Source of the DNA: a bacterium | GTDB taxonomy: Bacteria > Bacteroidota > Ignavibacteria > Kapaibacteriales > Kapaibacteriaceae | DNA length: 51,484 nt | Direction: 5' to 3' | Assembly (NCBI GenBank): GCA_024711065.1 | Contig: JANJTN010000128.1 | Coordinates: forward strand, 1-51,484 | Shown here: piece after piece, positions 951-48,219 of the stretch | How positions within the stretch are numbered: the stretch's first letter is position 1 | Layout of the letters: each line of letters opens with the position of its first letter | The notes under the pieces: generated by a model | The model's database searches: none | Told to the model about the DNA's origin: nothing | What the model saw: the letters and a program-made list of their open reading frames with translations, nothing else | Position numbers and translations under genes: made by a program

Positions 951-974
951 GTTAGGGGGCTTTCCAAAAACGAA

Positions 975-1001
975 AACGCCGGACGCTGAACGTCCGGCGT
1001 T
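975..1001 (-). terminator. Intrinsic terminator after rplQ
   Basis: Perfect 11-bp inverted repeat AACGCCGGACG-CTGAA-CGTCCGGCGTT, followed on the minus strand by TTTTCGTTTTTGG. Confidence 0.85.
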
Positions 1002-1023
1002 AATTCGACCGATCGTTCAGCGA

Positions 1024-1662
1024 TCAGTCCTGCTTCTCTTCGTCTGCTGCGGCTTCGTCTGCCGCCGGTGCGTCCGTAGTCTCCGGTGCTTCGGCAGCAG
1101 CCTCAGCAACCGGGGTCTCTTCGGTCACATCCTCAACGACGTCCTCTGCCACCTCTTCAGCCACCGGAGCAGCTGCCGGCTTGGCAGCTTTCGGAGCGGC
1201 CATCGGCTTCGGCTTGACCGGCTTGGCAGCCTTGCGCGTCTTGGACGTCACGCGGCCATCCTGCGGATTGGACCAGTCCACCAGCTCGATCACAGCTTCG
1301 GGAGCCGTGTCGCCGCGGCGATTACCGAGCTTGGTGATGCGAGTGTAGCCACCTGGTCGCTCAGCCACGGCCGGAGCGATCGTATCGAACAGCTCCTGCA
1401 GTACAGCCTTGTTGCGAATAAAGCGGCCAACCATACGGCGGCTGTGGACATCCACGCCTGTGATGGTACCCGACTTCTCGGCCAGGTGGGCATTCTTGGC
1501 ACGTGTAATGAGTTGCTCGGCGAACGGACGGAGCTCCTTGGCCTTGGCAACGGTGGTCACCAGTTTCTTGTGCTCAAAGAGCGACGTGGCCAGGTTCACC
1601 ATCAAGGCGCGCTTGTGGCTTGCCGTGCGCTTCAGCTTACGTCCGCTGTAATTGTGTCTCAT
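1024..1662 (-). CDS. rplQ: 50S ribosomal protein L17 with long Ala/Glu-rich C-terminal tail
   Basis: MRHNYSGRKLKRTASHKRALMVNLATSLFEHKKLVTTVAKAKELRPFAEQLITRAK; acidic low-complexity tail. Confidence 0.95.
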   Translation of the reverse strand: MRHNYSGRKLKRTASHKRALMVNLATSLFEHKKLVTTVAKAKELRPFAEQLITRAKNAHLAEKSGTITGVDVHSRRMVGRFIRNKAVLQELFDTIAPAVAERPGGYTRITKLGNRRGDTAPEAVIELVDWSNPQDGRVTSKTRKAAKPVKPKPMAAPKAAKPAAAPVAEEVAEDVVEDVTEETPVAEAAAEAPETTDAPAADEAAADEEKQD

Positions 1663-1683
1663 GATCCTTGATCCTTTTCTCGC

Positions 1684-3743: not shown

Positions 3744-3796
3744 GTCTATTCTCCGGTCGTGGGGCGTTGGAAAGCCCCTTTCACAAATTCATTCGT

Positions 3797-4027: not shown

Positions 4028-4822
4028 CTACATTTCCGTGAGGACCATCGGTGTGTTCCCATTGATCACCACCGTATGCTCGAAGTGTGCCGACGGCTTG
4101 CCGTCAGCTGTATACACCGTCCACCCATCACTCGCCGTATGCACCTGGAACATGCCCATGTTGACCATCGGCTCGATGGCCAGCGCCATGCCGTTCCGCA
4201 AGCGCGCATTCGGATATCGCGACCGGTGTAGCAATCCCGGGACGAAATTGGGGACAGGGGGCTCTTCATGCAGGTGACGGCCAATGCCGTGACCTACCAG
4301 CTCCCGGACCACCGAGAATCCTTGCTTTTCAACACACGTCTGGACGGCCTTTGCGATATCATACACCCGCTGGCCCTCCACGGCCTGTTCGATGCCTAGC
4401 CGGAGAGACTCCTGCGTGGCGTCGAGCAGACGCTGTTTGTCGGTCGAGATCTCCCCTACGGCGAACGTAAAGGCACTGTCGCCGAAGAATCCATCCAGTT
4501 GGACCCCGCAGTCGACCGAAACGATCTGACCTTCCTTCAGCATGCGCGAACCCGGCATGCCGTGAACCACTTCCTCATCGATACTGATGCAGAGCGACGA
4601 AGGGAACACGCGGCCGTCGACCACATACCCCTTGAACGCCGGAACGCCATTGCGCGTGCGGATAAAGTCCTCCGCGATCGCGTCCAGCTCGCGCGTCGTA
4701 ACACCGGGAGCAATGTGCTTCCCGACCTCGGCAAGGGTATCGGCCACGATGCGGCAAGCCGCTTCGATCTTTCCGACATCCTCGGCCGTGTGAACGACCG
4801 CCATCGTATCTGCAACAGCCAT
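4028..4822 (-). CDS. map: Type I methionine aminopeptidase
   Basis: VSVDCGVQLDGFFGDSAFTF, GHGIGRHLHEEPPVPNF; GTG at 4825 is an alternative start overlapping the secY stop. Confidence 0.95.
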   Translation of the reverse strand: MAVADTMAVVHTAEDVGKIEAACRIVADTLAEVGKHIAPGVTTRELDAIAEDFIRTRNGVPAFKGYVVDGRVFPSSLCISIDEEVVHGMPGSRMLKEGQIVSVDCGVQLDGFFGDSAFTFAVGEISTDKQRLLDATQESLRLGIEQAVEGQRVYDIAKAVQTCVEKQGFSVVRELVGHGIGRHLHEEPPVPNFVPGLLHRSRYPNARLRNGMALAIEPMVNMGMFQVHTASDGWTVYTADGKPSAHFEHTVVINGNTPMVLTEM

Positions 4823-6180
4823 CACTGTCCAGACATTGCCCCGGCCCGGCCGCTGATCTTACCGGTCTTCATGAAGCCGTCGTAGTGACGCATCAAGAGA
4901 TAGGATTCGATCTGCTGCAGCGTGTCGAGGGCAACACCCACGATAATGAGAAGACTGGTTCCGCCAAAGAACGACGCGAACACCGGAGGCACCTGCAACA
5001 CATTCATGGCGAACGTCGGCAGAATTGCCACGATCGCCAGGAAGATGGCGCCCGGAAGGGTGATCCGCGTAAGAATATTCTCGATGTAATTGGCCGTATT
5101 CGCTCCTGGGCTGATGCCCGGAATGAAACCACCATTGCGCTTCATATTGTCGGCCACTTCCTTCGGGTTGAAAGCGATAGCCGTGTAGAAGTACGTAAAG
5201 AACAGGATCATCGTACCATACGTCAGAGCATACCATACGGAGCGCTCGCTGAAGACGTTGGCAAATCCCTGCCAGAACTGACTTTCCGGGAAGAACGAAG
5301 CGATCGTTGCCGGAACGAACAGGATGGACTGGGCGAAGATGATCGGCATCACACCGGCGGTGTTCACGCGCAGTGGGATGTACTGCATCGAACCACCATA
5401 CACCTTGCGGCCGACCTGGCGCTTCGCATACTGGACCGGGATCCTACGAGCCCCTTGCGTAACAAGGATCACCGCAGCGATGATACCAGCCAGCAACACC
5501 AGAAGCACCACATCTACCACCAGGTTCCGAGAACCGGCGTTGATCAGCGTGAACTCCTGGCTCACAGCCGTGGGGAAGCGCGCGATGATACCGATCATAA
5601 TGATCAGGGAGATACCGTTGCCGATGCCACGGTCGGTGATCTGCTCGCCGATCCACATCAGACCCACCGTGCCGGCCGTCATGATCAGGATCACAGACAG
5701 CGTCCAGAACAGTCCGGCATCCGGCACCACGGAAGCACCGCCGGCACCCACTGTGGTCTGGGCGATCTTGATCGACACGCCCCAGGCCTGCAAAGCCGCC
5801 AGAAACACCGTCAGCACACGTGTGTACTGATTGATCTTGCGTCGTCCGTCCTCACCTTCGCGTTGCAGCTTCTGCAGTTCCGGCAACACAACGCCGGCGA
5901 TCTGCAGGATGATGCTCGCGGAGATGTACGGCATGATGCCCAGAGCAAAGACTGCTGCGTTGGAGAACGCGCCCCCAACGAACATGTCGTACAAGCCGAA
6001 GATCGTGCCACTGTCTCCACCCATGCTCGACGCGGCCGTGAGCATTTCGACGTTCACGCCCGGGATCGTGATGAACGATCCCACACGCACGGCGATCAGG
6101 GCAACGAGCGTGAACAGCAATCGCTGACGCAGCTCGTCGATCTTCCAGATGTTCCGTACTGTGGTGATGAGGTTAGCCAT
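4822..6180 (-). CDS. secY: Preprotein translocase subunit SecY
   Basis: 452 aa multi-TM; LGIMPYISASIILQI, GIGNGISLIIMIGI. Confidence 0.97.
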   Translation of the reverse strand: MANLITTVRNIWKIDELRQRLLFTLVALIAVRVGSFITIPGVNVEMLTAASSMGGDSGTIFGLYDMFVGGAFSNAAVFALGIMPYISASIILQIAGVVLPELQKLQREGEDGRRKINQYTRVLTVFLAALQAWGVSIKIAQTTVGAGGASVVPDAGLFWTLSVILIMTAGTVGLMWIGEQITDRGIGNGISLIIMIGIIARFPTAVSQEFTLINAGSRNLVVDVVLLVLLAGIIAAVILVTQGARRIPVQYAKRQVGRKVYGGSMQYIPLRVNTAGVMPIIFAQSILFVPATIASFFPESQFWQGFANVFSERSVWYALTYGTMILFFTYFYTAIAFNPKEVADNMKRNGGFIPGISPGANTANYIENILTRITLPGAIFLAIVAILPTFAMNVLQVPPVFASFFGGTSLLIIVGVALDTLQQIESYLLMRHYDGFMKTGKISGRAGAMSGQ

Positions 6181-8725: not shown

Positions 8726-8766
8726 GGTTGTCTATCTATCGATGTGAAGTTGAAGGGGGCTCCGGA

Positions 8767-10028: not shown

Positions 10029-10033
10029 CTACC

Positions 10034-16944: not shown

Positions 16945-18993
16945 TTAGCGGCCGACGGCGGGTTCGTACCTGTTAAAGGTCATCGTATAGGACCCGCGTC
17001 CCTGCGTCAACGATCGCAACTGCGTCACGTAGCCGAATAGCTGGGACAGCGGTACCAATGCCGTCACAACTTGCAGGATGTCCCGGGATTGGATCCCTTC
17101 TACCCTGCCCATGCGGGAGCTAAGGTCTGCAATGACCTCGCCCACATACTCCTCGGGCGTAACGACCTCGACTTCGAACACCGGCTCCATCAGGATGGGG
17201 CTGGCCTTGCGGACCGCTTCACGAACGGCCATCGAGGCGGAAACGGCATAGGCCGTCTCCGTTGCGTCTTCTTCTTGATATGCCGAGTCTACAAGGACCG
17301 CCACAACATCGATCATGGGGTATCCTGCGATCGGACCAACCTTGAGGGCTTCCAAAGCCCCCTTCTCTGCACTCTTTGCAAACAACTCCGGAAGTACCCC
17401 TGGTTTGAGCTCGTTGCGGAACTCGAGGCCTTTTCCGGCGTCGTTCGGTCGGATCTCCAACGAGACCTGACCGAATTGGTTCTTCCCTGCATTGCTCCGA
17501 ACGAATTCGCCCTGAGCGGTAGCCGTGGAAGAGACCGTCTCTCGAAATGCGACTTGGGGTTTCCCAACCTTCACCGGAATGCCGAACTCTCGCTTCAACC
17601 GGTCAACGATGATCTCGAGATGTAACTCGCCAACACCGCTGATGATGGTCTGGCCAGACTCTGCATCCGTATGGAATCGAAACGTCGGATCTTCTTCAGA
17701 GAGCCGATGTAAGGACTCCGCAAGCTTGTCTTGGTCTGCCAGCGTTTTTGCTTCGATCGCCTGATTGATCACAGGCTCGGCAAAGGTGATGTTCTCCAGG
17801 AGAATTGGCTTCTTGGTGTCGCAGAGCGTGTCGCCGGTTCTGGTGAACCGCAGCGCCGGGATGGCCACAATGTCCCCGGCAAACGCCTCATCCAGCTCGT
17901 CGCGCTTGTTTGCGCGCATCCGAATGATCTTGCCGATGCGCTCCTTCTTCTCTTCGTTGGTCACGTTCAGCACCTGCGTTCCGGTGCTGAGCGATCCGGA
18001 GTAGATGCGGATGAAGGTCAGCCGGCCAACAAAGGGATCCGTGATCACCTTGAAGGCCAGTGCCGAAAACGGCGCATCGTCGTCCGGTGGCCGGGTGTCC
18101 TCTTTGTCAGGATGCTTCACATCGTGCCCGTGCACATGCCCTACGTCCAGCGGCGAAGGAAGGTAGTCTACTACGGCATTCAAGAGTTGTTGCACACCCT
18201 TGTTCTTGAAGGCCGATCCACAAAGGACCGGTGTGATCCGGGAATGCAACGTGGCCTTTCGAAGGGCCGTCTGGATCTCGTGGTTCTGAAGGGTCTCGCC
18301 CGCAAGGTATCGCTCCAGCAGGGCGTCGTCGAACTCGGCAATCGATTCGATCATCACGGTTCGGGCTTCCTCAGCGGCACTGAGCAACTCGGCCGGGATC
18401 GGTTGTTCGTCGAAGTGGATCCCCTGCTCGTTGTCGAACACCAGTGCCTTCATGGTGATCAGATCGATCACTCCGGTAAAGGTGTCCTCGGCCCCATACG
18501 GGATCTGGATCGCTACCGGTGTTGCGCCCAACCGGGCTCGCATCATCTCCAGTACTCGGGAGAAGTTGGCCCCGGGCCGGTCCATCTTGTTCACAAAGGC
18601 AATGCGCGGTACGTGGTACTGCTCTGCCTGATGCCAGACCGTCTCCGACTGCGGCTCTACGCCGGATACTGCACAAAAGAGGGCGATCGCGCCATCCAAC
18701 ACTCGAAGGGATCGTTGAACCTCTGCCGTGAAGTCCACGTGCCCCGGCGTGTCGATGATGTTGATCGTGGTATCGTGCCACTTGGTCGAAACCGCGGCCG
18801 ACGTGATCGTGATGCCACGCTCTTTCTCCTGCTCCATGTAGTCCGTGAAAGCAGTGCCTTCATGAACTTCACCCATGCGATGCAACACACCAGTGTAGAA
18901 CAGGATCCGCTCCGTCGTCGTCGTCTTACCGGCATCAATGTGGGCCATGATGCCGATGTTGCGTACGTGGTCAATGGCGACGGTGCGTGGCAT
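16945..18993 (-). CDS. fusA: Elongation factor G (str-operon copy)
   Basis: 682 aa; [72 protein letters not shown]. Confidence 0.95.
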
Positions 18994-20054: not shown

Positions 20055-20120
20055 TACCACGTCCGCCCGACGTCAAGTTTGGTAAGGGGCTCGCCAGATG
20101 TACACCGCGCCGGCTGCCGC

Positions 20121-22400
20121 CTAGAATCGGATCACGGGCCGACTGATCACGCCACGCTCATGCCGAGCCGTGATCACATAGGTTCCGGGCACCACATTCG
20201 ATAGATCCACCGCTACCTCCGTCTGGCCCTCGTCAAGGGTCCGCCGAAACAGCGTCCGGCCATGCATGTCCATGACCGACAAGGAGTTCCAGAGCGGCCC
20301 CACCGGCAGAGAGACCGTGGCCAGTTCCGCAGCGGGATGTGGGAACACTCCGATCGGTGCCAGATCTGCGGCCTCCGATGGTACCGACGTTACCCCGGTT
20401 ACCACACCGCGCACGATCCTGCGGTCTTCCCGCATGGCAAAGCCGGCGGCTCCACCAAACGACCACGGCAGTGCTACGGTACTGGCGAATCGGCCAACGG
20501 TCTGCGGCTCCAACGCCAGGGTTACCTCGATCGCGTCCAACGGGCCCCCTTCAAATGGAAGCGGACTCGTGCTGGTCACGGCAAACGGGGCACTCGGACC
20601 ATGAATGGTGTGGAGCTCCAGCGCCGTGTTCCAGGTCTGGTGCCGGAACATCACGTCCCGCTCCACGCGCTCGCCAACAACGGCCTGACCCAAGTCGACC
20701 ACGTGCTCGAATGCGTCGGATCGAACTTCGGCAACCACCGGTAGGAGTTGAACGCCCCGTGCCGTATGGATCTCGAGCTGCACATGATACACGCCGGCCG
20801 CCATCGGCTCGAATACGACCGTCAACGGCAGCGTTTCGCCCGGAGCCAGCGTCACGGGGAATTCGGGCATGTCCGTAATGGCGAACGCGATCAGGTCGCT
20901 ACCCGTGATCTCTATCCGCTCTACCTGACGCGCCTCGGATGCGTTGTTGACCATCACGTCGAATGCCTGCTCCACGATCTCGGTGGTAACCACGTTGCCC
21001 AGGTCCAGCACGGGCTGCGCCAACGTAAGGTCGCCGTTGCCGGCAGGCTGCTGGCCGGTAGAACTGACCAGCACCTCAGCCGTGGTTCCGTCCGTGAACA
21101 CCACCTGCAACACACCCCACTGGTTGCCCACAGACTGTGGACCGTGAACGATCTGCACGGCCAGTTCCCCACCTGGGGCAACGATGGATCCGATCGTAGG
21201 CTGCTGCACCATGCAGCCACTCATGTCGTGTAGCACCACAGAAGCCACGGTAAGGGGCTCGTCGGTCGCATTCCGGAACACCTGGTCGAATCGTCGATCC
21301 ACGAACGAGGTCACGTCCGACGTGCCCAACGGCAGATGTTTGCGCAGCAGGTCCACCCCGCCACGAGGCAGCGTGCGATCGTACCACCGGCGATATGAGT
21401 TCTGTTCGAAACCCACAGCGATCACGCGATCCCCACCCCGGGCGATCCGCACCACAGCGCCTTCCGTATCCGAGATATCACGCACACCCCAGTTGGTACC
21501 GGCGTCTCGACTATGGAACTCAGAAGCCACAACGATGGGCTCGGGGTCGGCATCCAGCACACGCAAACCAACGGCGATCAGGTCCGGTCCATCGGCACGA
21601 ATAATGTCGGTGACCAGCATCAGTTCCGGATGCTCTTCGAACACCCACGACGTCCCCTCGTCCATACTGCGAAAGACACCCGCAGTACCATCGCCAAGTT
21701 GTACGCCCGTTGCGACCCACTGCAGACTCGTACCCGCGATCGCACTCACGTTGAAATCGAACGAGCCCCCTAACGATTCATCCCACGTGATTCCGGCGTC
21801 GCGCGAGACCAGCACGATCGGAGAGCCGCTACCTTCCTGACGATGGGCTCCGCCGAAGACCACGGCCGTGGTAATACTCATGAACTGAGCGCCATTGATG
21901 GTGACCGGCACGTTCACGGTGGTCTGCAGACGTACAAAGTTCTGTCCGCCGTCGGCGGATCGGAGGATCAGGGGACGCTGGAACTCGTCCATTCCAGCCA
22001 CCAGTATGATGCCGTTGGCAATATCGACACCGGTGAGTGTCCATTGCGCATGCAGTTGCTGGGCAAGCGGTGTGGCTCCTGGTTGATATCGGACCATCCA
22101 GCCATCCGCACCCACAGCTACCACCATGTTCATGGACACATCGGCGGTAACGGCGTTCAGCGTTGCATCGCTCACGCCGGCATCAAGCCGGTTCCACACC
22201 CGTCCGCCGTCCATCGACTCAAAGAACAAGCCCCCTACCCCGACCGTCCAGAATCGATAGCTATCCAGGGCTGCAACGTCCAGCAAGCGCCCACCGGGAG
22301 GCATGGCAACGGCAGACCACGGTCGGTCTGCCACCTGGGCCGTGCCTCCGGCCAGACTGGCCAGCACCAGGGTCATGATCAGGAATCCTTTGCGTATCAT
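20121..22400 (-). CDS. Secreted YCF48/BNR-like repeat protein with Ig-like (ASH/choice-of-anchor-like) region and T9SS C-terminal signal
   Basis: Signal peptide MIRKGFLIMTLVLASLAGGTAQ; repeats such as ESMDGGRVWNRLDAGVSDATLNAVTA, VSRDAGITWDES, RSMDEGTSWVFEE; C-term VFPHPAAELATVSLPV...VVPGTYVITARHERGVISRPVIRF. ORF-track N-terminus (to 22847) trimmed. Confidence 0.8.
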   Translation of the reverse strand: MIRKGFLIMTLVLASLAGGTAQVADRPWSAVAMPPGGRLLDVAALDSYRFWTVGVGGLFFESMDGGRVWNRLDAGVSDATLNAVTADVSMNMVVAVGADGWMVRYQPGATPLAQQLHAQWTLTGVDIANGIILVAGMDEFQRPLILRSADGGQNFVRLQTTVNVPVTINGAQFMSITTAVVFGGAHRQEGSGSPIVLVSRDAGITWDESLGGSFDFNVSAIAGTSLQWVATGVQLGDGTAGVFRSMDEGTSWVFEEHPELMLVTDIIRADGPDLIAVGLRVLDADPEPIVVASEFHSRDAGTNWGVRDISDTEGAVVRIARGGDRVIAVGFEQNSYRRWYDRTLPRGGVDLLRKHLPLGTSDVTSFVDRRFDQVFRNATDEPLTVASVVLHDMSGCMVQQPTIGSIVAPGGELAVQIVHGPQSVGNQWGVLQVVFTDGTTAEVLVSSTGQQPAGNGDLTLAQPVLDLGNVVTTEIVEQAFDVMVNNASEARQVERIEITGSDLIAFAITDMPEFPVTLAPGETLPLTVVFEPMAAGVYHVQLEIHTARGVQLLPVVAEVRSDAFEHVVDLGQAVVGERVERDVMFRHQTWNTALELHTIHGPSAPFAVTSTSPLPFEGGPLDAIEVTLALEPQTVGRFASTVALPWSFGGAAGFAMREDRRIVRGVVTGVTSVPSEAADLAPIGVFPHPAAELATVSLPVGPLWNSLSVMDMHGRTLFRRTLDEGQTEVAVDLSNVVPGTYVITARHERGVISRPVIRF

Positions 22401-22514
22401 TTTCGTACTCCGTGCTTCTGTGTAATGAGGTGTGATTGAACGAGCGTCGATCGACGCACGGAGCTCCCAAAGGTTCATCCACATCTTCACGTATTCTTCG
22501 AAGTCGAACACCCT

Positions 22515-24035
22515 ATGCCGGCACATACAAAGGATGACCTCCGCCGTCTGATCCACTCGCTGGACCGCACCGAAGTGGGCTACGTCAAGAAGTACTGGTC
22601 GCGATACAGCAGCGATCCGGACCAGGATTACGTGATCCTGTTTGACGTCATTCGGGGGCTGGACGACCCCTCGCCGCAGACCCTGAAAGAGGCTGTAAGG
22701 GGCTTCCCGTGGGCACACCGCTTGTCGTCCGTCAAGAACTACTGCATGCAGCGGCTCCTGGATGCACTTCGTGCCTACTCGATGTCCAGCACACCGGCTC
22801 GACGGATCCAGGAACTGCTGGATGATGCCGATCTTCTGTTGGACCACGGGCTGTATACCGAAGCGGAAAAGCGTGCATCGAAAGCATTGGCGCTGGCGGC
22901 AGCTCTTGAAGTGTTCATCCCATGGCTCCGAGCCCTGGCCTGGCTGAAGCGATTTCGGCAGCTGGTACGCAATGCCTATGAGGACTCACCCCGCAACCCC
23001 GATCTGAATGCCGAGCAACGGCGCGTTCTGCAGCTGTATCATAACAGCCTGGACTACGAGGAAATGGGCAATGCCATGCACAAACACCTTGTCCGGTCCA
23101 GTGCTGGCGATCGCGTCTCGGCGAAGTGGCTGGACACCATCCTCGACGCGCCGCTGCTGCAGTCTCCAGACCAGGCTCTGAGCCACTCTGCTGCCGCAAA
23201 CTTCTACCTGTTGCGCTGCAACTGGTACCGTATGCACAAGGTGGACGCGGAATCGGCGTTCGCCGAAGCATCAGCGCTGGAGACTCTACGTCGATCAGAG
23301 CCGGAGTTCTTCGCCGCACGCACCGAGCTGAACGAGACTTCGTGGTATACCTACCTGTTCTGTGCGCTGGAGGCCAGGCGTCCGGACGTGTATCTGCAGG
23401 ATGCCGACGCGTTCTACGCGTGGACAAACGCGGTTCGGATCGAACGCACGATCACACGAGCAACACGATCCTGGATGCTGGAGTCCAACTACGCCCTGTA
23501 CGAGCAGTCCTACGATCGCCTGCTGCAGATAGAACCGAGCCTGCGCTACTTCTACCGTCATCAAGGCGAGCAGATCACTCCACACAACCGGGTGGTTCTG
23601 GTATTCACCATGGTGCGCGCCGGCGTGGAGTGTGCGGCGGACGCCATGCGTGTTTACTGGACGCGAGAACTCATGGATCTGGACGATGCTGTTCGTCCGG
23701 ATCTGCATGCAGCAGCCATGTTGTACGACCTGATGCATGCCGTTGAGGCCAACGACACCGAGTTCCTGCGCTCGCGAACACGCAGTCTGCAGCGGTATGC
23801 CCGCAAGCACCTCGGAGCGTCGGCACTGCTTGAGCGTACATTATCCTTCTTTCGCCGCGTTCCGGACAGCACGCCGAACAAGGTCCGCCAGATGGGCAGA
23901 GAGATGGCCGCGGCATTTCGGAGCGCTCCTCCACTCCCCATGTTCGACCCCGTTGGAACGTCGGCGATCTCCCGCTGGTTCGAAACCCGCTATGCAGCGG
24001 CGTCCGAAAACGCTGGCGATCCGGCCTCCAGATAG
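22515..24035 (+). CDS. Conserved hypothetical protein, 506 aa, probably helical-repeat
   Basis: Long ORF from ATG; Leu/Ala/Arg-rich helical character; N-term DDLRRLIHSLDRTEVGYVKKYWSRY resembles a Bacteroidota unknown-function family (recollection, not searched). Confidence 0.75.
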   Translation: MPAHTKDDLRRLIHSLDRTEVGYVKKYWSRYSSDPDQDYVILFDVIRGLDDPSPQTLKEAVRGFPWAHRLSSVKNYCMQRLLDALRAYSMSSTPARRIQELLDDADLLLDHGLYTEAEKRASKALALAAALEVFIPWLRALAWLKRFRQLVRNAYEDSPRNPDLNAEQRRVLQLYHNSLDYEEMGNAMHKHLVRSSAGDRVSAKWLDTILDAPLLQSPDQALSHSAAANFYLLRCNWYRMHKVDAESAFAEASALETLRRSEPEFFAARTELNETSWYTYLFCALEARRPDVYLQDADAFYAWTNAVRIERTITRATRSWMLESNYALYEQSYDRLLQIEPSLRYFYRHQGEQITPHNRVVLVFTMVRAGVECAADAMRVYWTRELMDLDDAVRPDLHAAAMLYDLMHAVEANDTEFLRSRTRSLQRYARKHLGASALLERTLSFFRRVPDSTPNKVRQMGREMAAAFRSAPPLPMFDPVGTSAISRWFETRYAAASENAGDPASR

Positions 24036-25886: not shown

Positions 25887-26052
25887 ACGAACCTCCGTTA
25901 GGAAATAGTGGGACAGGGTTTGCATTCACGTGTCTGCGTTTGTGGTACTGAGATGCAGCGGAGGTACACGATGTCTCAGACTACGGAAAAAATATGCCGA
26001 CTGCCAATCAGCGTGAGACATCCGCCTCGATTGCTGCATCTATCACGAGATC

Positions 26053-27770: not shown

Positions 27771-28609
27771 ACCGGTACATACTGATCCTTGCCGCCGGGA
27801 TCTCGCTCTCGTTGATCGGGTGCACCGATGCTGCACTGATCGACACGCCTAGGATGTTCGACACCGTAGGCGTTGACCGTACGGTGTTGCAGACCGTGGA
27901 GGTGATCGGCCGCACGGACGCCATTGTCCTTGTCAATGGATCCGCCTCCACATGCAACATAGCACCAGGGTCCCGCTGTACCATGATCGAATACTCGGAC
28001 GGCTCGGTAGGCTTCAGTGCCGATATCATCCTTGAGAACGGATCTGACCGACCGACCCTGGCGGTTGATGTTCAACGCTGTGCATTTCGATGCGCTCCCG
28101 TGGATATCGACTCGGCTGCGGTGAGCGTCTCTGCTCCATACGGTCCGGCGGAGACGGGAGGTACGGCAACCCTGTTCCATACAATAACAGATGCAGTGGA
28201 CTACGTCGACTCAATGCGTGTGAGCACCACCGTCAGACGGCAGACGCTGTCGGAGCAGAAGACCCTTGAAGATCTGGACATCACGCGGCGCTACAACGGC
28301 TTTGATGTGAGCGATGATACCGTTCGGGTACCCTTCGACGTCTTTGGGCTGCGCAGCACCGAACTCTCCGTCGACACCTCGTATGCGATCAGGATCCGAC
28401 ATCTCGGCAACCGTTCCGAGGTCGCCAGCACCGTATTGGAGCCCCCTACCTATAGCGGAGACCCTCTCTCCGCGACCATTTCCGCAGACGGACAAGGCGC
28501 AACGGCCACGCTTCGGTTCGTGGTCGAAGCAACGGATAATCCCGCACTACAGGGGCTATTGGGGCTTGGTGGTACGGTCGTGATCCAACTCGTGATCACG
28601 CTGGACTGA
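27764..28609 (+). CDS. Putative lipoprotein of the ECF sigma operon
   Basis: Start trimmed to MVNRYILILAAGISLSLIGC (lipobox LIGC); overlaps the preceding stop (ATGGTGA). Confidence 0.75.
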   Translation: MVNRYILILAAGISLSLIGCTDAALIDTPRMFDTVGVDRTVLQTVEVIGRTDAIVLVNGSASTCNIAPGSRCTMIEYSDGSVGFSADIILENGSDRPTLAVDVQRCAFRCAPVDIDSAAVSVSAPYGPAETGGTATLFHTITDAVDYVDSMRVSTTVRRQTLSEQKTLEDLDITRRYNGFDVSDDTVRVPFDVFGLRSTELSVDTSYAIRIRHLGNRSEVASTVLEPPTYSGDPLSATISADGQGATATLRFVVEATDNPALQGLLGLGGTVVIQLVITLD

Positions 28610-28620: not shown

Positions 28621-28646
28621 AAAGGGGCATCCATTCGGACGCCCCT
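28621..28646 (-). terminator. Terminator hairpin, copy A of an identical 26-bp sequence
   Basis: AAAGGGGCATCCATTCGGACGCCCCT; minus-strand RNA forms AGGGGCGUCC-GAAU-GGAUGCCCCU followed by UUUUCGUUG; overlaps the stop of 28645..31275. Confidence 0.75.
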
Positions 28647-32139: not shown

Positions 32140-32179
32140 CTCAATCGTTCAAGCGTTCGAATGCTCAAGCGCTTGACTA
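32140..32179. repeat. Degenerate 8-bp tandem repeat at the 3' end of the second EF-G gene
   Basis: CTCAATCG TTCAAGCG TTCGAATG CTCAAGCG CTTGACTA. Confidence 0.5.
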
Positions 32180-34270
32180 GCGGCCTTCGGCGCGCTTGGC
32201 AGCGTGCTCCTTGGCCATTTCGTCCTGAATGTTCTTTGGAATCTGCGAGTACTTCGCGAATTCCATCGAGAACTCGCCTTTGCCTTGGGTTACCGAGCGC
32301 AGGTCCGTGGAGTAGCCGAACATTTCCGACAGCGGCACTTCGGCCTCGACGGTCACATAGGCCACGTCCGACTCCGTGCGGATGATCACGCCACGACGCT
32401 GGTTGATCTGACCGATCACCGTGCCCTGGAACTCTTCCGGCGCGCTTACTTCCAGCTTCATGATCGGCTCGAGCACGATCGGCTTGGCTTTCATATAGGC
32501 TTCGCGGAAGGCCATCAGCGAAGCGGTCTTGAACGCCTGCTCGGAGGAGTCCACCGCGTGCGTTGCACCGTCGTTGATGGTCACACGCACACCCACGATC
32601 TTCTGACCGATGATAGTACCTTCCTGCAGTGCTTCCTGGAAGCCCTTGTTACAGGCCGGAATGTACTCGCGGGGGATCACACCGCCTACGATATCATCCA
32701 CGAACTCATAGGTTTCAACGGCATCCAGTGGCAGCGGCTCGATAAAGCCCCCTACCCGACCGAACTGGCCGGAACCACCCGTCTGCTTCTTGTGCGTGTA
32801 GTTGAACTCGGCGCGCTGCGAGATGGCTTCGCGGAAGGCTACCTTCGGACGTCCAACGATCACTTCGGTGTTGTATTCGCGCTTGATCCGCTCAATGTAG
32901 ATATCCAGGTGCAGCTCGCCCATGCCCTTGATGATGGTCTCACCAGACTCTTCATCTCGGCTTACGCGGAAGGTTGGGTCTTCCTTGGTGAAGCGGTTGA
33001 GGGCCTTGGAGAAGTTCACCTGACCGGCCTTGTCCTTCGGAGCCACGGCCAACTCGATCACGGGCTCGGGAACGAACATCGACGTCATCGAATAGTTCAC
33101 TGTTCCGTCCGTGAACGTGTCGCCCGAGGCGCAGTCCACACCGAACAACGCCACGATGTCTCCAGCGCGTGCTTCTTCGATGTCGTGCATCTCGCTGGAG
33201 TGCATCCGCACCAGGCGCGGCACCTTGATCTTCTTGTTGCCGGACACGTTGAAGATGAAGTCGCCTTTCTTGACCGTACCCTGATAGATCCGCATGTAGG
33301 TCAGCTGACCATAGCGGCCGTCTTCGAGTTTGAAGGCGAGCATCACGAGCGGCTTGGAAGGATCGCTAGCGAGCGCCACTTTCTCTTCGTTCTTGTCCTG
33401 GTCCAGGGCTTCGTTGTTGATGTCGAACGGTGCCGGCAGGAAGTTCGTTACCCCGTCCAGCAGCGTCTGCACGCCTTTGTTCTTGTAGGCCGAGCCACAG
33501 AACACCGGCGTCATGTTCATCGTAAGCGTACCCTTGCGGATGGCGGCCATCAACTCGGCGGTCGTAGGCTGCTCGTCCATCAGGAATTTCTCCATCAGCG
33601 AATCGTCAAAGTCGGCCGCGACCTCGACCAGGCGACGGCGGAGTTCGCCGGCCTTGTCGGCCATGTGCACCGGGATCTCCTCGACACGGATGTCCGAGCC
33701 CCCTTCACCATCGAAGTACACGGCCTTCATATTCACGATGTCGAGCACGCCTTCGAGCTTGTCTTCGAGGCCGATCGGATACGTCACGAACGCCGGGTTG
33801 TGCTGGAGCTTCTCGGCAAGCTGCGCCATCACACGGTCCGGGTTGGCACCCGAACGGTCGCACTTGTTGATGAAGGCCAGGCGCGGTACGCTGTAGCGGC
33901 GCATCTGACGGTCCACCGTGATGGACTGCGACTGCACGCCTGCCACCGAGCACAGCACGAGCACGGCGCCGTCGAGCACACGCAGAGCGCGCTCCACTTC
34001 CACCGTGAAGTCCACGTGGCCTGGAGTGTCGATCAGGTTGATGTTGAAATCACCCCACTCGCAGTACGTTGCGGCAGACTGGATGGTAATGCCCTTCTCG
34101 CGCTCGAGATCCATCGAGTCCATCTTGGCGCCCACGCCGTCCTTGCCACGAACCTCGTGGATCGCGTGGATCTTGCCGGTGTAGAACAGGATGCGTTCGG
34201 ACAATGTGGTCTTGCCCGAGTCGATGTGAGCCGAGATTCCAATGTTCCGGACTTTTGACAGGTCAGCCAT
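32177..34270 (-). CDS. Second elongation factor G, mitochondrial-EFG1/spdEFG1-like
   Basis: 697 aa; [66 protein letters not shown]. Confidence 0.92.
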
Positions 34271-34341: not shown

Positions 34342-34379
34342 TGAAACAGAGTTCATGTGGAAGGGGGCTTGCAGAGGCC

Positions 34380-35612
34380 TCAATCCGCCCCGTCCTTCAG
34401 CTCCAGCTTTCGCAGGATCGGGGCCTTGAAGGCCACAGCGGACAGGATCAGGAGCGTCATCACGCCGCCGAAGATCACGCTGGGGACCGCGCCCATCAGG
34501 CGGGCGGCAACGCCGGACTCGAGGGCGCCGATCTCGTTGCTGGACGAGATGAACATCGTGTTGGCAGCCGCGACGCGGCCGCGCATTTCGTCCGGGGTAA
34601 AGAGCTGCAGAATGGTCCCCCGGATCACCACGCTCACGGCGTCGAACGCACCCACACCAACGAGCAGCACAACACTGAGCCAGAAACTGGTGCTCAGGGC
34701 GAAAGCGATAGTGCACAGACCAAAGCCCCCTACCGCCAGCAGGAGCGTCCGTCCCGTATTCCGCTCCGGCGGGCGCACACTGAGCAACGTCATGATCAGC
34801 ACACTACCTACGGACGGCGCGGCCCGAAGTACACCCAGGCCACTGGCATCCACATGCAACACCTGGTCGGCAAAGACCGGCAGGATGGCGACGGCGCCGC
34901 CGAACAGCACGGCCAGCATGTCCAGCCCCAGCGCACCCAGGATCACCTGGTTCTTGAGAATGAAACGCAGTCCGAGCGTGAGGTCCTGCTTCAGACTCCC
35001 CTTGCTCTCCGATGCGATCGGCGGAAACGACGGCAATCCGGCGATGCCGATCACGGCGATGAGCATGGAGGCAATGGTACACACCGATGCCACGGTCACG
35101 CCAAACGATCCATAGAGTACGCCAGCGGTCATCGGGCCCAGCACCATCGCCCCCTGCCAGACGGTACTACCGGCCGCAGTGGCACGAGCCAGCAGGTCGC
35201 GCGGCACGATGCGGCTGAGCACCGAGAACATCGAGGGCGAATAGATCGAACGTGCGAAGCCATTCACCACCACCATGGCCAGCATCAGTCCGACGGTCCA
35301 CTGTTGCCCCAGATGCTGCGCCGAAGCCGGCTGCACCAGCATGGCTGTGGCGATAGCGCTGAGGAGCACCAGGATGGTGGCTACCACGATCGACCGTTTC
35401 TTGTTCATCTTGTCCACCACGTACCCCATCGGCAACGCAGCACCGATCGCCGGGATGGCCTCGGCCAGGCCCACCATCCCAAGCATCAATGGGTCTCGGG
35501 TCAGATCGTAGATCCTCCATGCTACCACCAACGCCTGCATGTGCCAGCCGGAGGCCATGAAGAAGCGCAGCAACAAGTACGATCGGAAGGGGGCTAGCAG
35601 AAGCGGATTCAC
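34380..35612 (-). CDS. MFS transporter (MFS_3/enterobactin-exporter-like)
   Basis: 410 aa, ~12 hydrophobic segments; [47 protein letters not shown] (first residues differ); GTG start. Confidence 0.88.
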
Positions 35613-35641: not shown

Positions 35642-36532
35642 ATGATCACGGAAACCGGACTCAAGTTCAGCATCATCGCTCGGGTGATCTGGAAACGCCT
35701 GGCCTACCTGTTACTGCTGTCGGTAGTGGTGGTAGTGACCTATGACTTCTGGGGACAGCACGTAGACCTGCCCAATACGCCCCTTGCCATCTTCGGCACC
35801 CTGCTGGCCATCCTCCTGGGTTTTCGCGTGAACAACGCCTATCAACGGTGGTGGGAAGCCCGCATGCTCTGGGGCAAGATCGTGAACGACTCTCGGTCGA
35901 CGGCGCGGATGATCCTGTCCTACGTAGGCCCTGTAGACCCAGAACGCGCGCGCACGATGGTCCGCCGCCAGATCGGGTATTGCTGGTCGCTGCGCAATCA
36001 TCTCAGGGGGCTGTCCAAAGACCTGGACCTGACACCGTTCTTTGAGACCAACGAGCTGGCTCTCTTACTGCAACGTGTGAACGTTCCCAATGCGATCATC
36101 GAATCCAACTCTCGCGATGTGGCGGAGCTGGAACGCATGGGGCTATTGAACCGCACCCATGTCCGCCTCTTCGAAGAGCGCTTCTGCCTGTTCCTCGATA
36201 GCCAAGGTGGCTGCGAGCGGATCAAGAAGACGGTGTTCCCACATGACTATCGGTACTACACCACGTTCTTCGTGAATGTGTTCTCTACGATCTTCCCGTT
36301 CATCATCGTGGATGAGGCAGACTGGCAGACGGTGCCGTGGACGATCTTCTTCGGCTTTGCGTTGTCCAGTATCGATCACCTGGCAAAGGCGATCGAAAAT
36401 CCGTTCGAGAACCGCGTGAACGATACAGCCATGAATGCCATCAGCCGCACGATCGAGATCGACCTGCGCCAGATGCTCGGCGAAACGGAACTGCCGGAAC
36501 CGGTCAAGCCGGTGGACGGATATTTGATGTAG
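35642..36532 (+). CDS. Bestrophin-family (UPF0187) anion channel
   Basis: TPLAIFGTLLAILLGFRVNNAYQRWWEARMLWGKIVNDSR; PFIIVDEADWQTVPWTIFFGFALSSIDHLAKAIENPF. Confidence 0.92.
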   Translation: MITETGLKFSIIARVIWKRLAYLLLLSVVVVVTYDFWGQHVDLPNTPLAIFGTLLAILLGFRVNNAYQRWWEARMLWGKIVNDSRSTARMILSYVGPVDPERARTMVRRQIGYCWSLRNHLRGLSKDLDLTPFFETNELALLLQRVNVPNAIIESNSRDVAELERMGLLNRTHVRLFEERFCLFLDSQGGCERIKKTVFPHDYRYYTTFFVNVFSTIFPFIIVDEADWQTVPWTIFFGFALSSIDHLAKAIENPFENRVNDTAMNAISRTIEIDLRQMLGETELPEPVKPVDGYLM

Positions 36533-36566: not shown

Positions 36567-37931
36567 GTTCGTCCACTTGTCCACGGCAGAGCAGACCACG
36601 GCATCTCCGGTTACGTTCACCACTGTGCGGCCCATATCCAGCAGGCGGTCCACCGGCACGATGAAGCTGATCCAGGCCGGATTCAACCCCACGCTCTGCA
36701 TCACCAGGATCATGGTCACCAGTCCCGCACTGGGCACTGCCGCAGCGCCGATCGATGCCAGCGTAGCGGTGAGCACGATCGTTACCTGTTGCATCAGCGA
36801 GAGATCCACCATGTGGAACTGGGCCAGGAACACCACGGCCACGGCCTGATACAACGACGTTCCATCCATGTTCACGGTGGCTCCGATGGGCAGCACGAAT
36901 CCGACGGTTTCTTTGCGAACACCCAGGTTGTCGTGTACACACTCCATGGTTACTGGTAGCGTAGCAGCGCTGGAGCTGGACGAGAACGCCAGCATCTGCG
37001 CGGGAGCCATGCCCCGAAAGAACTGGCCAACGGTCATATCCCTACGGAACGTTCGGATGATCAACGGATAGATCACGAAGATCATCAGTACCAACCCCAG
37101 CACCACGGTCAGGCTGTACCAGCCGAGACTCTGAAAGATCGCACCGAGTCGTGAGGGGTCGTTCCCTGCCAAGCCCCCTACCTTCCCGGCAACAAGGCAG
37201 AACACGAAAAATGGTGCCGCCTTCATCACCATGTCGACCATCTTCAGCAGCACGTCATCGGTGGCTGACAGCAGGTCCGCCATGGCCTTGGTTCGATCGG
37301 AAGGCACCAGCACCATGGCGATGCCAAAGAGCACAGCAAAGGCGATGATCTGCAGCATGGCGGCATCGGTGAAGGCCCCGAACAGATTCTCCGGGATCAC
37401 GTCCACCAGCGGCTGCAATGGACCCTGCTCGCGGGTAGCTTCCATTGTCTGCAGTCCTTTGGCCACCTTGGCGTCCACCACTTCCTCGCCCACCGCTGCG
37501 GAAGCCTGTGGCTGGGTGATCTGTCGTCCATCAAGGGTCTCCACGCCATCGGTCCGGGCTACCCAGGCTTCGTACCGTGCCCGATTGCGCAGGCGCTGGT
37601 CCTGATCGATCATGGATCCCGGCTGGATAAGGTTCACCAGCAGAAGGCCCAGAGACACCGCCATCACGGTCGTGACCAGGTAGAGCATCAGCGTACGGAA
37701 GCCTAGCCTTCCCAGGCGCCGGATGTCGCTCAACGAGGCAACGCCTCGGATCACCGACACAGCTACGAGCGGCACGGCGATCAGCTTGAGGAGTCGCAGA
37801 AAGATCTCACCGAACGGGTCGATCCAGTTGTCGGTCAGCGAAGCCCAACCCAGCGACGAGGCCAGGAACGCCCAGCCAAATCCCAGGCCAAGCGCGATCA
37901 CGATCTGCCAATGGAGCGCCAGTTTCTTCAT
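36564..37931 (-). CDS. Dicarboxylate/amino acid:cation (DAACS) symporter
   Basis: FSSSSSAATLPVTMECV serine-rich stretch; FVLPIGATVNMDGTSLYQAVAVVFLAQ; DRLLDMGRTVVNVTGDAVVCSAVDKW. Confidence 0.93.
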   Translation of the reverse strand: MKKLALHWQIVIALGLGFGWAFLASSLGWASLTDNWIDPFGEIFLRLLKLIAVPLVAVSVIRGVASLSDIRRLGRLGFRTLMLYLVTTVMAVSLGLLLVNLIQPGSMIDQDQRLRNRARYEAWVARTDGVETLDGRQITQPQASAAVGEEVVDAKVAKGLQTMEATREQGPLQPLVDVIPENLFGAFTDAAMLQIIAFAVLFGIAMVLVPSDRTKAMADLLSATDDVLLKMVDMVMKAAPFFVFCLVAGKVGGLAGNDPSRLGAIFQSLGWYSLTVVLGLVLMIFVIYPLIIRTFRRDMTVGQFFRGMAPAQMLAFSSSSSAATLPVTMECVHDNLGVRKETVGFVLPIGATVNMDGTSLYQAVAVVFLAQFHMVDLSLMQQVTIVLTATLASIGAAAVPSAGLVTMILVMQSVGLNPAWISFIVPVDRLLDMGRTVVNVTGDAVVCSAVDKWTN

Positions 37932-37958: not shown

Positions 37959-39941
37959 TCATCGAACGTTGAGCAGAACGGAGGGACCTTGGGCACTGCG
38001 CACCAGGTACACGCCGCCGGCCAGGTGGCGGGTGTCGACGTCGACCTCGCCATGAACCATGCCGGTCCATACATCGCGTCCCATCAGGTCCGTGATCTGC
38101 ACCAACATGGGCACGTCCGTCCGTAGCACCACGCGATCATCTGCCGGATTGGGGAACGCGGCCAAGCCCCCTTCCACCCGAGGACCCTCTGCCACCGACG
38201 TTGCCGGATCCGGGAAGCGGACATGATAGCGCTCCCACGTATCGCTGCACCACTGGGCGAGCACCTCCATGGTGTCGCCGGTCGGGCGAATGATCAGGCA
38301 ATCGCCCTCCATGATCTCGGCCGTGGTCAGGATCTCCCCGTCACCAGCCGGATTGAACACCAGGTTGGCCACGGCATCATGGGTGCTGATCACGCGACAG
38401 CCGTTCGTGGGGATCGTTTCCAGGTCCTGCAACCGTGCTGCCGCGATCGCATCGCCGCCGCCGCTGGCCCAATGTTGTTGCTTCTCGTACCGACCCAGCA
38501 TCAGGTCCAGTGTTTCCCAACACCGGCACACCGGACTGGAATAGCCATCGCCAGTAGGTACTCCTTGGGCGATCATCACCTTGCCGATCTCGCGCGACTG
38601 CTCGCGTCCCTCGTGGATCAGGTTGCGACCGGGGAAGCAATCAGGTGAGGGCCCCGGATCCTTGGAGTTCCAGTCCGTTTTGGCATGGCGGAAGAACACC
38701 ACCATGGTACCAGTGCGCAGTTCTGCCATGGCTTCGGGAGGCGTAAGGCGGCCACGGCGCTGACTCTCGTACGCTCCAAGGTCTACCTTGCGTCCAACCA
38801 GACGCGGGTTACCGATGGCATCGCAGTTCTGATGGTTCACGAACTTGTCGACCACGCCACCGTCTCGCGCCACCGAGAAACTCGACGGACGCAGACCATC
38901 GTCGTCCGTGCCGAAGTAGCCATCCGGGCCCATGGGATCGTTGATGTCTTCAAAGGACGGATCGCTCTGCCAGAAGCCGAGGTCGAAGTCTTTCTCGATC
39001 AGATTGGCGGTGGAGGTGAACGTATGCGCGTCGTCCTTCTTCACCTGCACTACATGCTTGAGCGTGTCCGGCAGGTCGCCGTTCCACATCACCGAATTTT
39101 GGAGAAGGCCTCCGGAGACCACAAGCGACGTTCCGCCGCCGGCAACGGCATCGGTGCCAACCGAATTACGAACGAACGTGGTGTTCACGATGTACACGGG
39201 AGTTTCGGCGGCGATGGCGCCCCCTCCAAGAGCGGCATAGTTGCTGTCGAACACGCACGAGGCGATCTGCACCGTGGGCGCTACATCGCTGGCTCCCACA
39301 TAGATCCCACCAGCAGTGGCCTCGGTGCTGTTGGCCAGGAACATCGTTTCGCCGATGAAAGGACCATACCCGTACGACGGCGGGTCCTGGTGATTTCGGA
39401 TCGCGATACCGCGGCCGCTGTTATGGTCGAACTGGCAGAACTCTACACGTACCCTGCCGGTCTGGGACAGCACCAGGGCGTCGCCTTCAAACCCGGTAAA
39501 GCGGCAATTGTAGAAAGCTGGCTGGCCGAACTGCACATCGATCCCGCCAATAGGGCCACGGAACACCAAGCCATCGAGTCGGGTGGTGGAGTCGTGCTCA
39601 ACCAGGGTCCACCGCCCGTTCAGCACGACCACGCTCGGCCGCCGATACCAGTCGCGCAGCTCCCGCAGCGTCTCGTAGCCACCAAAGCCGCCGTACAGGC
39701 GCACACCCTTGGGCAACGTAGCGCTAAAGGCATCCACCTCATAGGCGCCACGTGCCACCCATATCTCGTCGCCATCGGCGGCCATGGACAGGGCATCCGC
39801 CAGGTAGCGGTACGGAGCATTCCACGACTGACCGTCGCCACCCGGCTCTGCGATGGCGGCAACGAACAGGGTGTCGGCAGCGTGAAGGGGGCTAGCCACT
39901 GCGGCCGCCACAAGCATCAGTAGGAGGGCTCGTTTGATCAT
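37959..39941 (-). CDS. Secreted protein: beta-helix-like N-terminal half, histidine-phosphatase-like domain, T9SS C-terminal signal
   Basis: Signal peptide MIKRALLLMLVAAAVASPLHA; right-handed beta-helix-like region; VVFFRHAKTDWN and VISTHDAVANLVF phosphatase motifs; C-term AAFPNPADDRVVLRTD...LAGGVYLVRSAQGPSVLLNVR. Confidence 0.8.
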   Translation of the reverse strand: MIKRALLLMLVAAAVASPLHAADTLFVAAIAEPGGDGQSWNAPYRYLADALSMAADGDEIWVARGAYEVDAFSATLPKGVRLYGGFGGYETLRELRDWYRRPSVVVLNGRWTLVEHDSTTRLDGLVFRGPIGGIDVQFGQPAFYNCRFTGFEGDALVLSQTGRVRVEFCQFDHNSGRGIAIRNHQDPPSYGYGPFIGETMFLANSTEATAGGIYVGASDVAPTVQIASCVFDSNYAALGGGAIAAETPVYIVNTTFVRNSVGTDAVAGGGTSLVVSGGLLQNSVMWNGDLPDTLKHVVQVKKDDAHTFTSTANLIEKDFDLGFWQSDPSFEDINDPMGPDGYFGTDDDGLRPSSFSVARDGGVVDKFVNHQNCDAIGNPRLVGRKVDLGAYESQRRGRLTPPEAMAELRTGTMVVFFRHAKTDWNSKDPGPSPDCFPGRNLIHEGREQSREIGKVMIAQGVPTGDGYSSPVCRCWETLDLMLGRYEKQQHWASGGGDAIAAARLQDLETIPTNGCRVISTHDAVANLVFNPAGDGEILTTAEIMEGDCLIIRPTGDTMEVLAQWCSDTWERYHVRFPDPATSVAEGPRVEGGLAAFPNPADDRVVLRTDVPMLVQITDLMGRDVWTGMVHGEVDVDTRHLAGGVYLVRSAQGPSVLLNVR

Positions 39942-40016: not shown

Positions 40017-44294
<4,278 letters not shown>

Positions 44295-44337
44295 CGTTTC
44301 TCCGATGGAGTTTTCCGGTTCAGTGAATCGTGGACGA

Positions 44338-47300
44338 TCAATCGAACTTGACGTCCAGGCACAGGCCCTGCAACTCGCGAACGAGCACGTTGAAGGACTC
44401 AGGGATATTCGGCACCGGCAGGTTCTCGCCTTTGACGAGGGTCTCGTACATCTTGGCTCGTCCCTGCACGTCGTCCGATTTGACGGTGATCATCTCTTGC
44501 AGCGTGTGGGCAGCCCCATACGCCTCGAGTGCCCACACCTCCATCTCGCCGAGACGCTGTCCGCCGAACTGAGCTTTACCACCCAGCGGTTGTTGCGTGA
44601 TCAACGAGTATGGACCAATGGATCGCGCGTGCAGCTTGTCTTCGACCAAGTGCGAGAGCTTCATCATGTAGATGATGCCCACGGTGACTTCATTTTCGAA
44701 AGCTTCGCCTGAGCGGCCATCGTACAGCACCGTTTTTCCGGTACGAGGTAGTCCGGCCTGAGCAAGGTACTCGCCCACTTCCTCCCACGACGCACCATCG
44801 AAGATCGGCGTAGCGAAGTGCACACCCAGTTTCGAACCAGCCCAGCCGAGAGCGGTCTCGTACAGCTGGCCCAGGTTCATACGGCTCGGTACGCCCAGCG
44901 GGTTAAGGACGATGTCCACCGGCTGTCCGTCCGGCAGGAACGGCATGTCCTGCACCGGAACGATCTTCGAAACGATACCCTTGTTGCCGTGGCGGCCGGC
45001 CATCTTGTCGCCCACTTGCAGCTTGCGCTTCTTGGCCACATAGACCTTGGCCATCTGCAGGATACCGGGCTGCAGCTCGTCTCCGGCAGCGATCTTGTTC
45101 CGCTCGATCCGGCCATCCAGCATGACCAGCTGACGGCGGTTCTCGTAGTTCTTGAGCAGCTCGCGAAGCAACGTCATGGTCTTCTTGTCGGACACCCAAT
45201 CCTGCTCGACATTCATTGCCGACGGCACAAACGAGCCTGCCTCGTACTTGGCCATCAGATCCTCTGCCGACAGCTTGGCGCCGGAGCGGAACACCACCGA
45301 GTCATTCGCCGAGCGGATGCCGGTACTGGTCTTGCCGTCCAGTAGCTGACCGATGCGCTCCACACACTCTACGTCCAGAGCACGCAGAGCCTGCTGCTCG
45401 CGTTTGGTGATCAGGTCTTGCCGACGCTTCTCTTCCGCGCGGAACTCCGTATCGGAGGTCAGCACGCGGCGAGCGAACAGCTTGGTATTGATCACCGTGC
45501 CTTTGAGTCCGGGAGGTGCCTTCAGTGAAACGTCCTTCACATCTCCAGCCTTGTCGCCGAAGATGGCACGAAGCAGCTTCTCTTCCGGTGTCGGGTCGGT
45601 CTCGCCCTTGGGCGTGATCTTACCGATCAGGATGTCGCCCTCATGCACTTTGGAACCAACGCTCACGATACCGCGGTCGTCGAGGTCCTTGGTGGCTTCT
45701 TCCGAGACGTTCGGGATCTCGCGGGTGAACTCTTCTTCGCCACGCTTGGTGTCGCGAACCTGCAGCGTGAATTCTTCGATGTGGACCGATGTGAACACGT
45801 CTTGCGCTACCATGCGCTCGCTGATCACAATGGCGTCCTCAAAGTTGTATCCGCGCCACGGCATGAAGGCCACCATCACGTTCTGGCCGAGTGCCAATTC
45901 ACCGTCGTCGGTAGACGCACCGTCGATGATCGGCTCGCCCTTGGCTACGCGCTGTCCCGCCCGCACGATCGGGCGCTGGTTGATGGCGGTATCCTGGTTC
46001 GTGCGATAGTACTTCAGCAGTTCGTAGCGGATCACGCGATCGCCATCGAACGACGTCAGTTGCTCGTCCTTCGGGCGCTTGTCGTCGTACCGTACCTGCA
46101 CGTAATCACCGCACACGTACTCGATCACGCCGTCGTCCTCTGCGAGAACCACCGAGCGCGAATCCCGAGCCACGCGAGCTTCCATACCGGTACCCACGAT
46201 CGGAGCGTGCGGCCGTAGCAGCGGCACACCTTGGCGTTGCATGTTCGAACCCATCAGGGCCCGGTTGGCATCGTCGTGCTCCAGGAACGGGATCAGGGAG
46301 GCAGCCGGAGACGTGATCTGGTCGGTCGAGACCTCCATGTATTCCACTTCCGACGGCGGAACGACCTTGTAGTCGCCGCTGCGGCGGGCTTTCACGGTCT
46401 CTCCCACCAGGCGGCCCTTGCTGTCCACATCCGTGCCAGCCGGCACGATGGTCTTGCCTTCTTCCTTGTCGGCCGGCAGGAACTCCAGATCGTCGGTCAC
46501 GATACCGTTCACGACCTTCACATACGGCGTCTCGATGAAGCCGAACTTGTTCACGCGGGCATGGATGGCCAGCGACGAGATCAGACCGATGTTCGGACCT
46601 TCCGGCGTCTCGATCGGACACAGGCGGCCGTAGTGCGTATAGTGCACGTCGCGCACCTCAAAGCCGGCGCGCTCACGCGTCAGACCGCCAGGTCCCAGAG
46701 CCGAGGTCCGACGCTTGTGCGTAACCTCAGACAGCGGGTTGGTCTGATCCATGAACTGGCTCAGCTGGTTGGTTCCGAAGAACTGGTTGATCACGCTGGT
46801 GATCGTACGAGCATTGACCAGTTCGGACGGCGTGATGTTCTCGCTGTCGCGAACGCTAAGGCGCTCCTTGATCGTACGCGCCATCCGGGTCAGACCCAGA
46901 TTGAACGTCGATTCAAGCTGCTCGCCCACCGTACGAACCCGACGGTTGGCCAAGTGGTCGATATCGTCCACCGGCACCTTGGCGTCGCGCACGTCGATCA
47001 GGTGTTTCACGATCCGTACGATGTCGTCCACGGTCAGCGTGGTCACATCGAACGGCACGTTCAGATTCAGTTTCTCATTGATGCGATAGCGGCCCACAAC
47101 ACCCAGGTCATAACGCTTGGGGTTGAAGAACAGCTTCTCGAGCAAGCCCCAGGCCGTGTCCAGATCCGGTGGATCGGACGAACGGAGTTGGCGGTAGATC
47201 GTCTCCAGAGCATCCTCACGGGTGCGGGACGTGTCCTTGGCCAGCGTCTTGGCAATGATCGGCTCGTCGTTCGGGTTTTCGTACTTGTACAACCGAATGG

Positions 47301-48162
47301 AGTCCACCTCGGCTGCGCCGAGCATCTCCATCAGATTGGGGTCCACCACATAGTCGCGCTGGGCCACGATCTCGCCTGTGGCCATATCCACCACATCGGC
47401 CGCCACGCGGCGTCCGAGGTGATCTTCGGTGAGCTCACTCACCGGCACATCCTCGGCCAGTTCGAAGAGGTTCAACAGATCCTCATCGCTGGAATAGCCA
47501 AGGGCGCGCAGCAGGGTGGTGACCGGGAATTTCTTCTTTCGGTCGATGTAGGCGTACATCACGTCGTGGATGTCCGTGGTGAATTCGATCCACGAACCCT
47601 TGAACGGAATGATGCGCGCCGAGAAGATCTTGGTGCCGTTCGGGTGCAACGCTTCATCGAAGAAGCAGCCGGGCGAACGATGCAGCTGGGCAACGATCAC
47701 GCGCTCGGCGCCGTTGATGATGAAGGTTCCCCGAGGAGTCATCGCCGGGATCTGACCCAGGTAGACCTCCTGGTCGATCGCCTCGATGTAGTCCTCCGAG
47801 CTCGGGTCGGCCTTCGACGACAGCCGCAGACGGGCTTTCAGCGTCTTGGCGTACGTCAGCTCGCGCTCGCGACACTCTTCCTCGGTGTACTTGGGCTTCT
47901 CGATGAAGTAATCGATGAAGCTCAGTTCGTACACTCCGGAGTTGTCCTCGATCGGGAAGTTGGACGCAAAGGCACGCTGAAGGCCGAGGTTGCGGCGCTC
48001 CGTAGCCGGTACGTCTTCCTGCACGAACTCGTGGTACGAGTCGATCTGGATCCCGAGCAGGTCGGGGTAGGTGTGGTGCTTGCTAACGTGGCCGAAGTGA
48101 ACGCGCTCGCGGAGGCGCTTCATCGGCAGTGTGTACAGGGATGTATCCTGAGGTGCATGCAT
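44338..48162 (-). CDS. rpoB: DNA-directed RNA polymerase subunit beta
   Basis: 1274 aa; [57 protein letters not shown]. Confidence 0.98.
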
Positions 48163-48219
48163 GGGAAGGGGGCTCCCGACAGCGTGAACAAAGGTGTGGT
48201 CACAAGGACCAGTAAAGAC

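Follow-up and report, generated by a model that had tools for sequence, protein, structure and literature searches.

The window, that is, the whole stretch of 51,484 nucleotides of contig JANJTN010000128.1 (family Kapaibacteriaceae) analysed here, carries conserved ribosomal and RNA polymerase genes as well as a region described in a first-pass annotation as an accessory block. Throughout it recurs a short G-rich word, the octamer AGGGGGCT, which is the subject of this analysis. The annotation had counted 20 copies, nine on the plus and eleven on the minus strand, and each of them proved exact (Table 1). If anything, the claim was understated: the naive expectation of about three copies was too high, as dinucleotide shuffles of the window gave 1.18 (maximum 4) and a Markov-3 model predicted 0.62, and AGGGGGCT ranks first among all 8-mers of the window. 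A four-G form, AAGGGGCT, whose recurrence had also been remarked upon, was undersold; it has nine copies in the window, of which one (5449, in secY) had been missed and the others placed up to 7 bases off.

Table 1. Copies of the five-G and four-G forms of the word in the window (ORF, open reading frame; EF-G, elongation factor G)
Word	Position	Strand	Location
AGGGGGCT	954..961	+	intergenic
AAGGGGCT	3773..3780	-	intergenic/edge
AGGGGGCT	4256..4263	+	gene 4028-4822(-)
AAGGGGCT	5449..5456	-	secY (4822-6180 -)
AGGGGGCT	8754..8761	+	intergenic
AGGGGGCT	17356..17363	-	EF-G gene 16945-18993(-)
AAGGGGCT	20084..20091	+	intergenic
AAGGGGCT	21252..21259	+	Por_Secre_tail protein gene
AGGGGGCT	21764..21771	-	Por_Secre_tail protein gene
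AGGGGGCT	22229..22236	-	Por_Secre_tail protein gene
AAGGGGCT	22697..22704	+	ORF 22515-24035(+)
AGGGGGCT	24178..24185	+	ORF 23990-24802(-)
AAGGGGCT	24399..24406	-	ORF 23990-24802(-)
AGGGGGCT	24688..24695	-	ORF 23990-24802(-)
AAGGGGCT	24787..24794	+	ORF 23990-24802(-)
AAGGGGCT	25808..25815	+	ORF 24888-25925(-)
AGGGGGCT	28440..28447	-	ORF 27764-28609(+)
AGGGGGCT	32746..32753	-	second EF-G gene 32177-34270(-)
AGGGGGCT	33697..33704	-	second EF-G gene 32177-34270(-)
AGGGGGCT	34362..34369	+	intergenic
AGGGGGCT	34724..34731	-	ORF 34380-35612(-)
AGGGGGCT	35588..35595	+	ORF 34380-35612(-)
AGGGGGCT	36005..36012	+	ORF 35642-36532(+)
AGGGGGCT	37172..37179	-	dicarboxylate symporter gene
AGGGGGCT	38165..38172	-	ORF 37959-39941(-)
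AGGGGGCT	39886..39893	+	ORF 37959-39941(-)
AGGGGGCT	42410..42417	-	ORF 40017-44294(-), putative rpoC by position next to rpoB
AGGGGGCT	48167..48174	+	intergenic, beside rpoB
AAGGGGCT	50543..50550	+	intergenic

The word fills the genome

Counting over the whole genome of the window (G000; 2,555,726 bases), chosen beforehand as the test that could overturn the claim, gave 1293 copies of AGGGGGCT and 26 of a control word, the octamer read backwards. A sample of 280 kb from this genome contains AGGGGGCT 131 times (3.9 expected) and AAGGGGCT 99 times (5.5 expected), an enrichment of the two forms of 18-34x over the Markov-3 model. Since AAGGGGCT is enriched nearly as much as AGGGGGCT, the core is ARGGGGCT; the annotation was right that a word is enriched, but the word is not a rigid octamer and extends into a flanking GGn. 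Genome-wide, ARGGGGCT has 2275 copies (0.89 per kb, against 91 for its control).

The full consensus reads tGGnARGGGGCTt, of which the tGGn 5' and the t 3' of the core are common to three genera; flank information is graded, and the word is non-palindromic. Single-mismatch neighbours occur at about background, with slightly raised counts where the mismatch is at position 2 or 8, so that the enrichment is one of the exact word. Specificity for both outer bases, as proposed from the window, holds for the first base and is weaker for the last, where AGGGGGCG reaches 20 copies against 6.4 expected in the 280-kb sample. No specific neighbour is depleted, and this rules out mutational conversion of one neighbour into the word (as by a Vsr-like activity).

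As had been reported for the accessory block, 14 of the 20 AGGGGGCT copies lie within 20.1-40.0 kb of the window. This excess is not the property of an island, the word being spread over the whole genome; the block is richer because the conserved ribosomal and RNA polymerase genes hold few sites. Four proteins match C-terminal sorting domains of the type IX secretion system (window 20121-22847, 24888-25925, 28645-31275 and 37959-39941 (-)), only one of them above the curated cut-off, and their genes sit in the word-richest block. The window also carries two different elongation factor G genes (Table 1).

Independence from codons, transcripts and replication

GGG-GGC can encode Gly-Gly, so that the word might simply follow from base composition or from the use of codons or amino acids. 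This explanation is refuted. Synonymous-codon shuffling of the predicted genes gave 11.9 copies (maximum 21) in the genome of the window, against 201 observed (17x), and 27 against 305 in a complete 2.84-Mb genus-mate genome (G004). The word occupies all six codon phases, its reversed counterpart is rare, and its sites fall on less conserved residues (58% versus 69% amino-acid identity in orthologs of the two genomes). The earlier view that the word is not protein-driven is thus borne out.

The word lies on the sense strand in 61-62% of cases, near the 55-58% of letter-permuted words, which rules out an RNA-level motif. Because this bias is about baseline and all codon phases are used, the word is probably read as duplex DNA. 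Genomes were analysed in part from sampled stretches, spaced 70 kb apart in the genus-mate, where the origin, judged by GC skew, lies near 1.47 Mb. Here 211 of 378 sampled sites (55.8%) lie on the leading strand, compared with 55.6% for permuted G-rich words. The same test applied to the Chi site of Escherichia coli, as a positive control, returned 67% leading against 56%, a 2-fold enrichment and no flank information. The lack of polarity noted in the window therefore extends to the chromosome: it disfavours, as had been suggested, both a Chi site and an FtsK-orienting polar sequence (KOPS), the latter of which should show a strong origin-to-terminus polarity. Spacing between sites is close to random (coefficient of variation 0.91-0.97).

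In 41.5 kb of codon-aligned orthologs of the two genomes, a small sample of 29 sites, the word is present in both at five sites, at two of them through an A/G swap; permuted words, taken as control, gave 3.3% identity. At 27 of the 29 sites the alignment is free of gaps at or beside the word, suggesting that sites arise by substitution and ruling out an insertion element or its scar.

One family and its dialects

Among named public genomes, the RpoB closest to that of the host comes from an Ignavibacteria metagenome-assembled genome (66% identity), followed mostly by KSB1, Calditrichales and Bacteroidota, which places the host near the Ignavibacteria side of Bacteroidota. Among the genomes compared, G003 has RNA polymerase genes 84% identical to those of the genome of the window. 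Across 294 genomes from 31 families of the class, the word is clearly enriched only in the host's own family, which counts 23 genomes. Within it, genera g1, g2 and g3 carry ARGGGGCT, and other members carry variants, two of which come from small samples. Genome G008 has ARGGCGGCAAGG instead (ARGGCGGCA, 668 copies versus 93 of the control). In G009 the word AAGGGGC is doubled (AAGGGGC-n2-AAGGGGC); 210 kb of its sequence hold 27 pairs spaced by 9 bp and 6 spaced by 8 bp. This doubling suggests a reader with two modules. A candidate variant in G011, GAAGGGGGCC, with 11 copies against 0.3 expected in 120 kb, is tentative.

No clear dispersed word was found in the sampled stretches of G010 and G013. 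The k-mers that stood out in G013 were rejected as such a word, as they belong to a repeat present in about 75 clustered copies; this repeat contains GCGGGGATGAACC and resembles clustered regularly interspaced short palindromic repeats (CRISPR). Likewise, TTTTGAGG in a genome of another family (G030) was rejected as a motif, being part of a tandem array with the unit TTTTGAGGgagtccgtaaagc. Other repeats seen in the sampled stretches are a roughly 36-bp CRISPR-like repeat containing GTTGTGAATTGGCTACTAGAGCAGATCTTTGAAAG, with about 159 copies in the genus-mate, and repeats of types CCCCATTCCCCATT and GTTGCTGTTGGCTGTTGCTG in the genome of the window.

Possible function and comparison with known systems

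The above results are consistent with ARGGGGCT, in its extended form tGGnARGGGGCTt, being a lineage-specific word for the recognition of self DNA that acts like a DNA uptake sequence (DUS), a reading to which we give a probability of roughly 40%. A sequence-specific protein of this family would bind the word in the double helix whichever way it is oriented, and such binding would favour the DNA of kin in uptake, in recombination or in both. Repeated preferential recombination of word-bearing DNA could then raise the density of the word to roughly one per kb by selection through DNA exchange, and a change in the reader would give rise to new dialects.

Several observations weigh against self-recognition during uptake. 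The ATPase family PF00437 (PilB/PilT/GspE/VirB11) was above the Pfam cut-off in none of 30 genomes, secretin and pilins not having been searched, and matched in all 14 of 14 control genomes; since these motors were not found, a type IV pilus reader or route is unlikely. The annotation had rightly named an uptake-type signal, but an uptake sequence that simply relies on type IV pili is contradicted by the missing motors. The ComEC channel, present in 28 of 30 genomes, is not specific, as families that lack the word also have it, and so does E. coli, which is non-competent. Unlike typical DUS, the sites show no clear intergenic enrichment (9.6% of sites versus 10.3% of the DNA in the genome of the window, 16% versus 12% in the genus-mate), and no inverted site pairs, hairpins or terminator pairs were found. 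Nor did our searches find a reader protein for the word or, in the literature, a report of natural transformation in the relatives. The literature likewise yielded no report of the word itself.

The word might instead organise the nucleoid, as a chromosome-folding site for a lineage-specific DNA-binding protein, with no exchange of DNA. Its even genome-wide spread over both strands with no preference for genes or replication direction is what such a site would show, and the doubled sites of G009 would suit a multi-module binder. However, spacing is near random, an essential architectural site would not usually change its dialect rapidly, and we know of no nucleoid protein whose site is G-rich, 8 bp long and present about once per kb; we consider this role unlikely. 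Quite unlikely, in our judgement, is a Chi-type site, at which the AddAB helicase-nuclease would stop degrading and begin recombination, thereby protecting self DNA. Chi sites are, like the word, short, G-rich, asymmetric and lineage-specific, and a protein with an AddB/RecB-type PDDEXK nuclease domain was found in every genome searched (30 of 30; in the family mostly about 940-1040 amino acids, with a strong match), RecC in none of the 26 searched. In contrast to the word, the E. coli Chi of our control is polar, far less enriched and devoid of flank information, and the Chi of Caulobacter AddAB is strand-asymmetric (PMC5443536). Moreover, sister families without the word have the same nuclease domain, and the doubled form in G009 would be hard to account for.

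It is also highly doubtful that the word is made and kept by methylation-directed repair, as proposed for HIP1, the highly iterated palindrome (HIP) of cyanobacteria (PMC4390886). HIPs resemble the word in being very abundant (at a density of the same order), GC-rich, located mostly in coding DNA, debated in function and replaced by alternates in some lineages. They are, however, palindromes tied to cognate methyltransferases, whereas ARGGGGCT is asymmetric, and no single-substitution neighbour is specially depleted, as would be expected of a repair product.

So far as we are aware, words for self-recognition as strong as this one are established in no groups but Neisseriaceae and Pasteurellaceae, both of which depend on type IV pili for them. 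If a distant lineage with no detectable pilus motors has a word that is just as dense and forms dialects, this would point either to a new route of self-selecting DNA uptake or to a new reason for filling a genome with one word. The protein that reads it could be sought by comparing the sister genera, whose variants lend themselves to this.

With the DUS of Neisseriaceae and the uptake signal sequences (USS) of Pasteurellaceae the word shares a density of about one per kb, its 2275 copies in 2.56 Mb falling within the thousands of copies, at about 0.5-2 per kb, that mark these systems. It also shares a non-palindromic 10-12 bp consensus with graded flanks, occurrence on both strands with no replication polarity, a ComEC channel, a sharp limitation to one lineage, and the presence in sister genera of related dialects, one of them an insertion variant. 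In Neisseria, DUS number about 1900 per genome, and their dialects differ, among other things, by changes of single bases and by a 1-bp insertion (PMC3630211). The present word differs in belonging to another phylum, in having a doubled dialect, in not being clearly enriched between genes and in lacking both inverted terminator pairs and, in its family, detectable type IV pilus motor ATPases. Because two usual features, the pilus machine and the intergenic terminator pairs, fail, we do not file it as a member of the DUS. Known over-represented words are of the Chi, uptake and HIP classes (PMC4390886), and ARGGGGCT fits none of these fully. We tentatively suggest that it may represent a fourth kind of genome-saturating self word, confined to one Bacteroidota-related family in which no type IV pilus motors are detectable. 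A multi-module protein would read it on duplex DNA, and its dialects, differing in sequence or by doubling, would form barriers that separate lineages.
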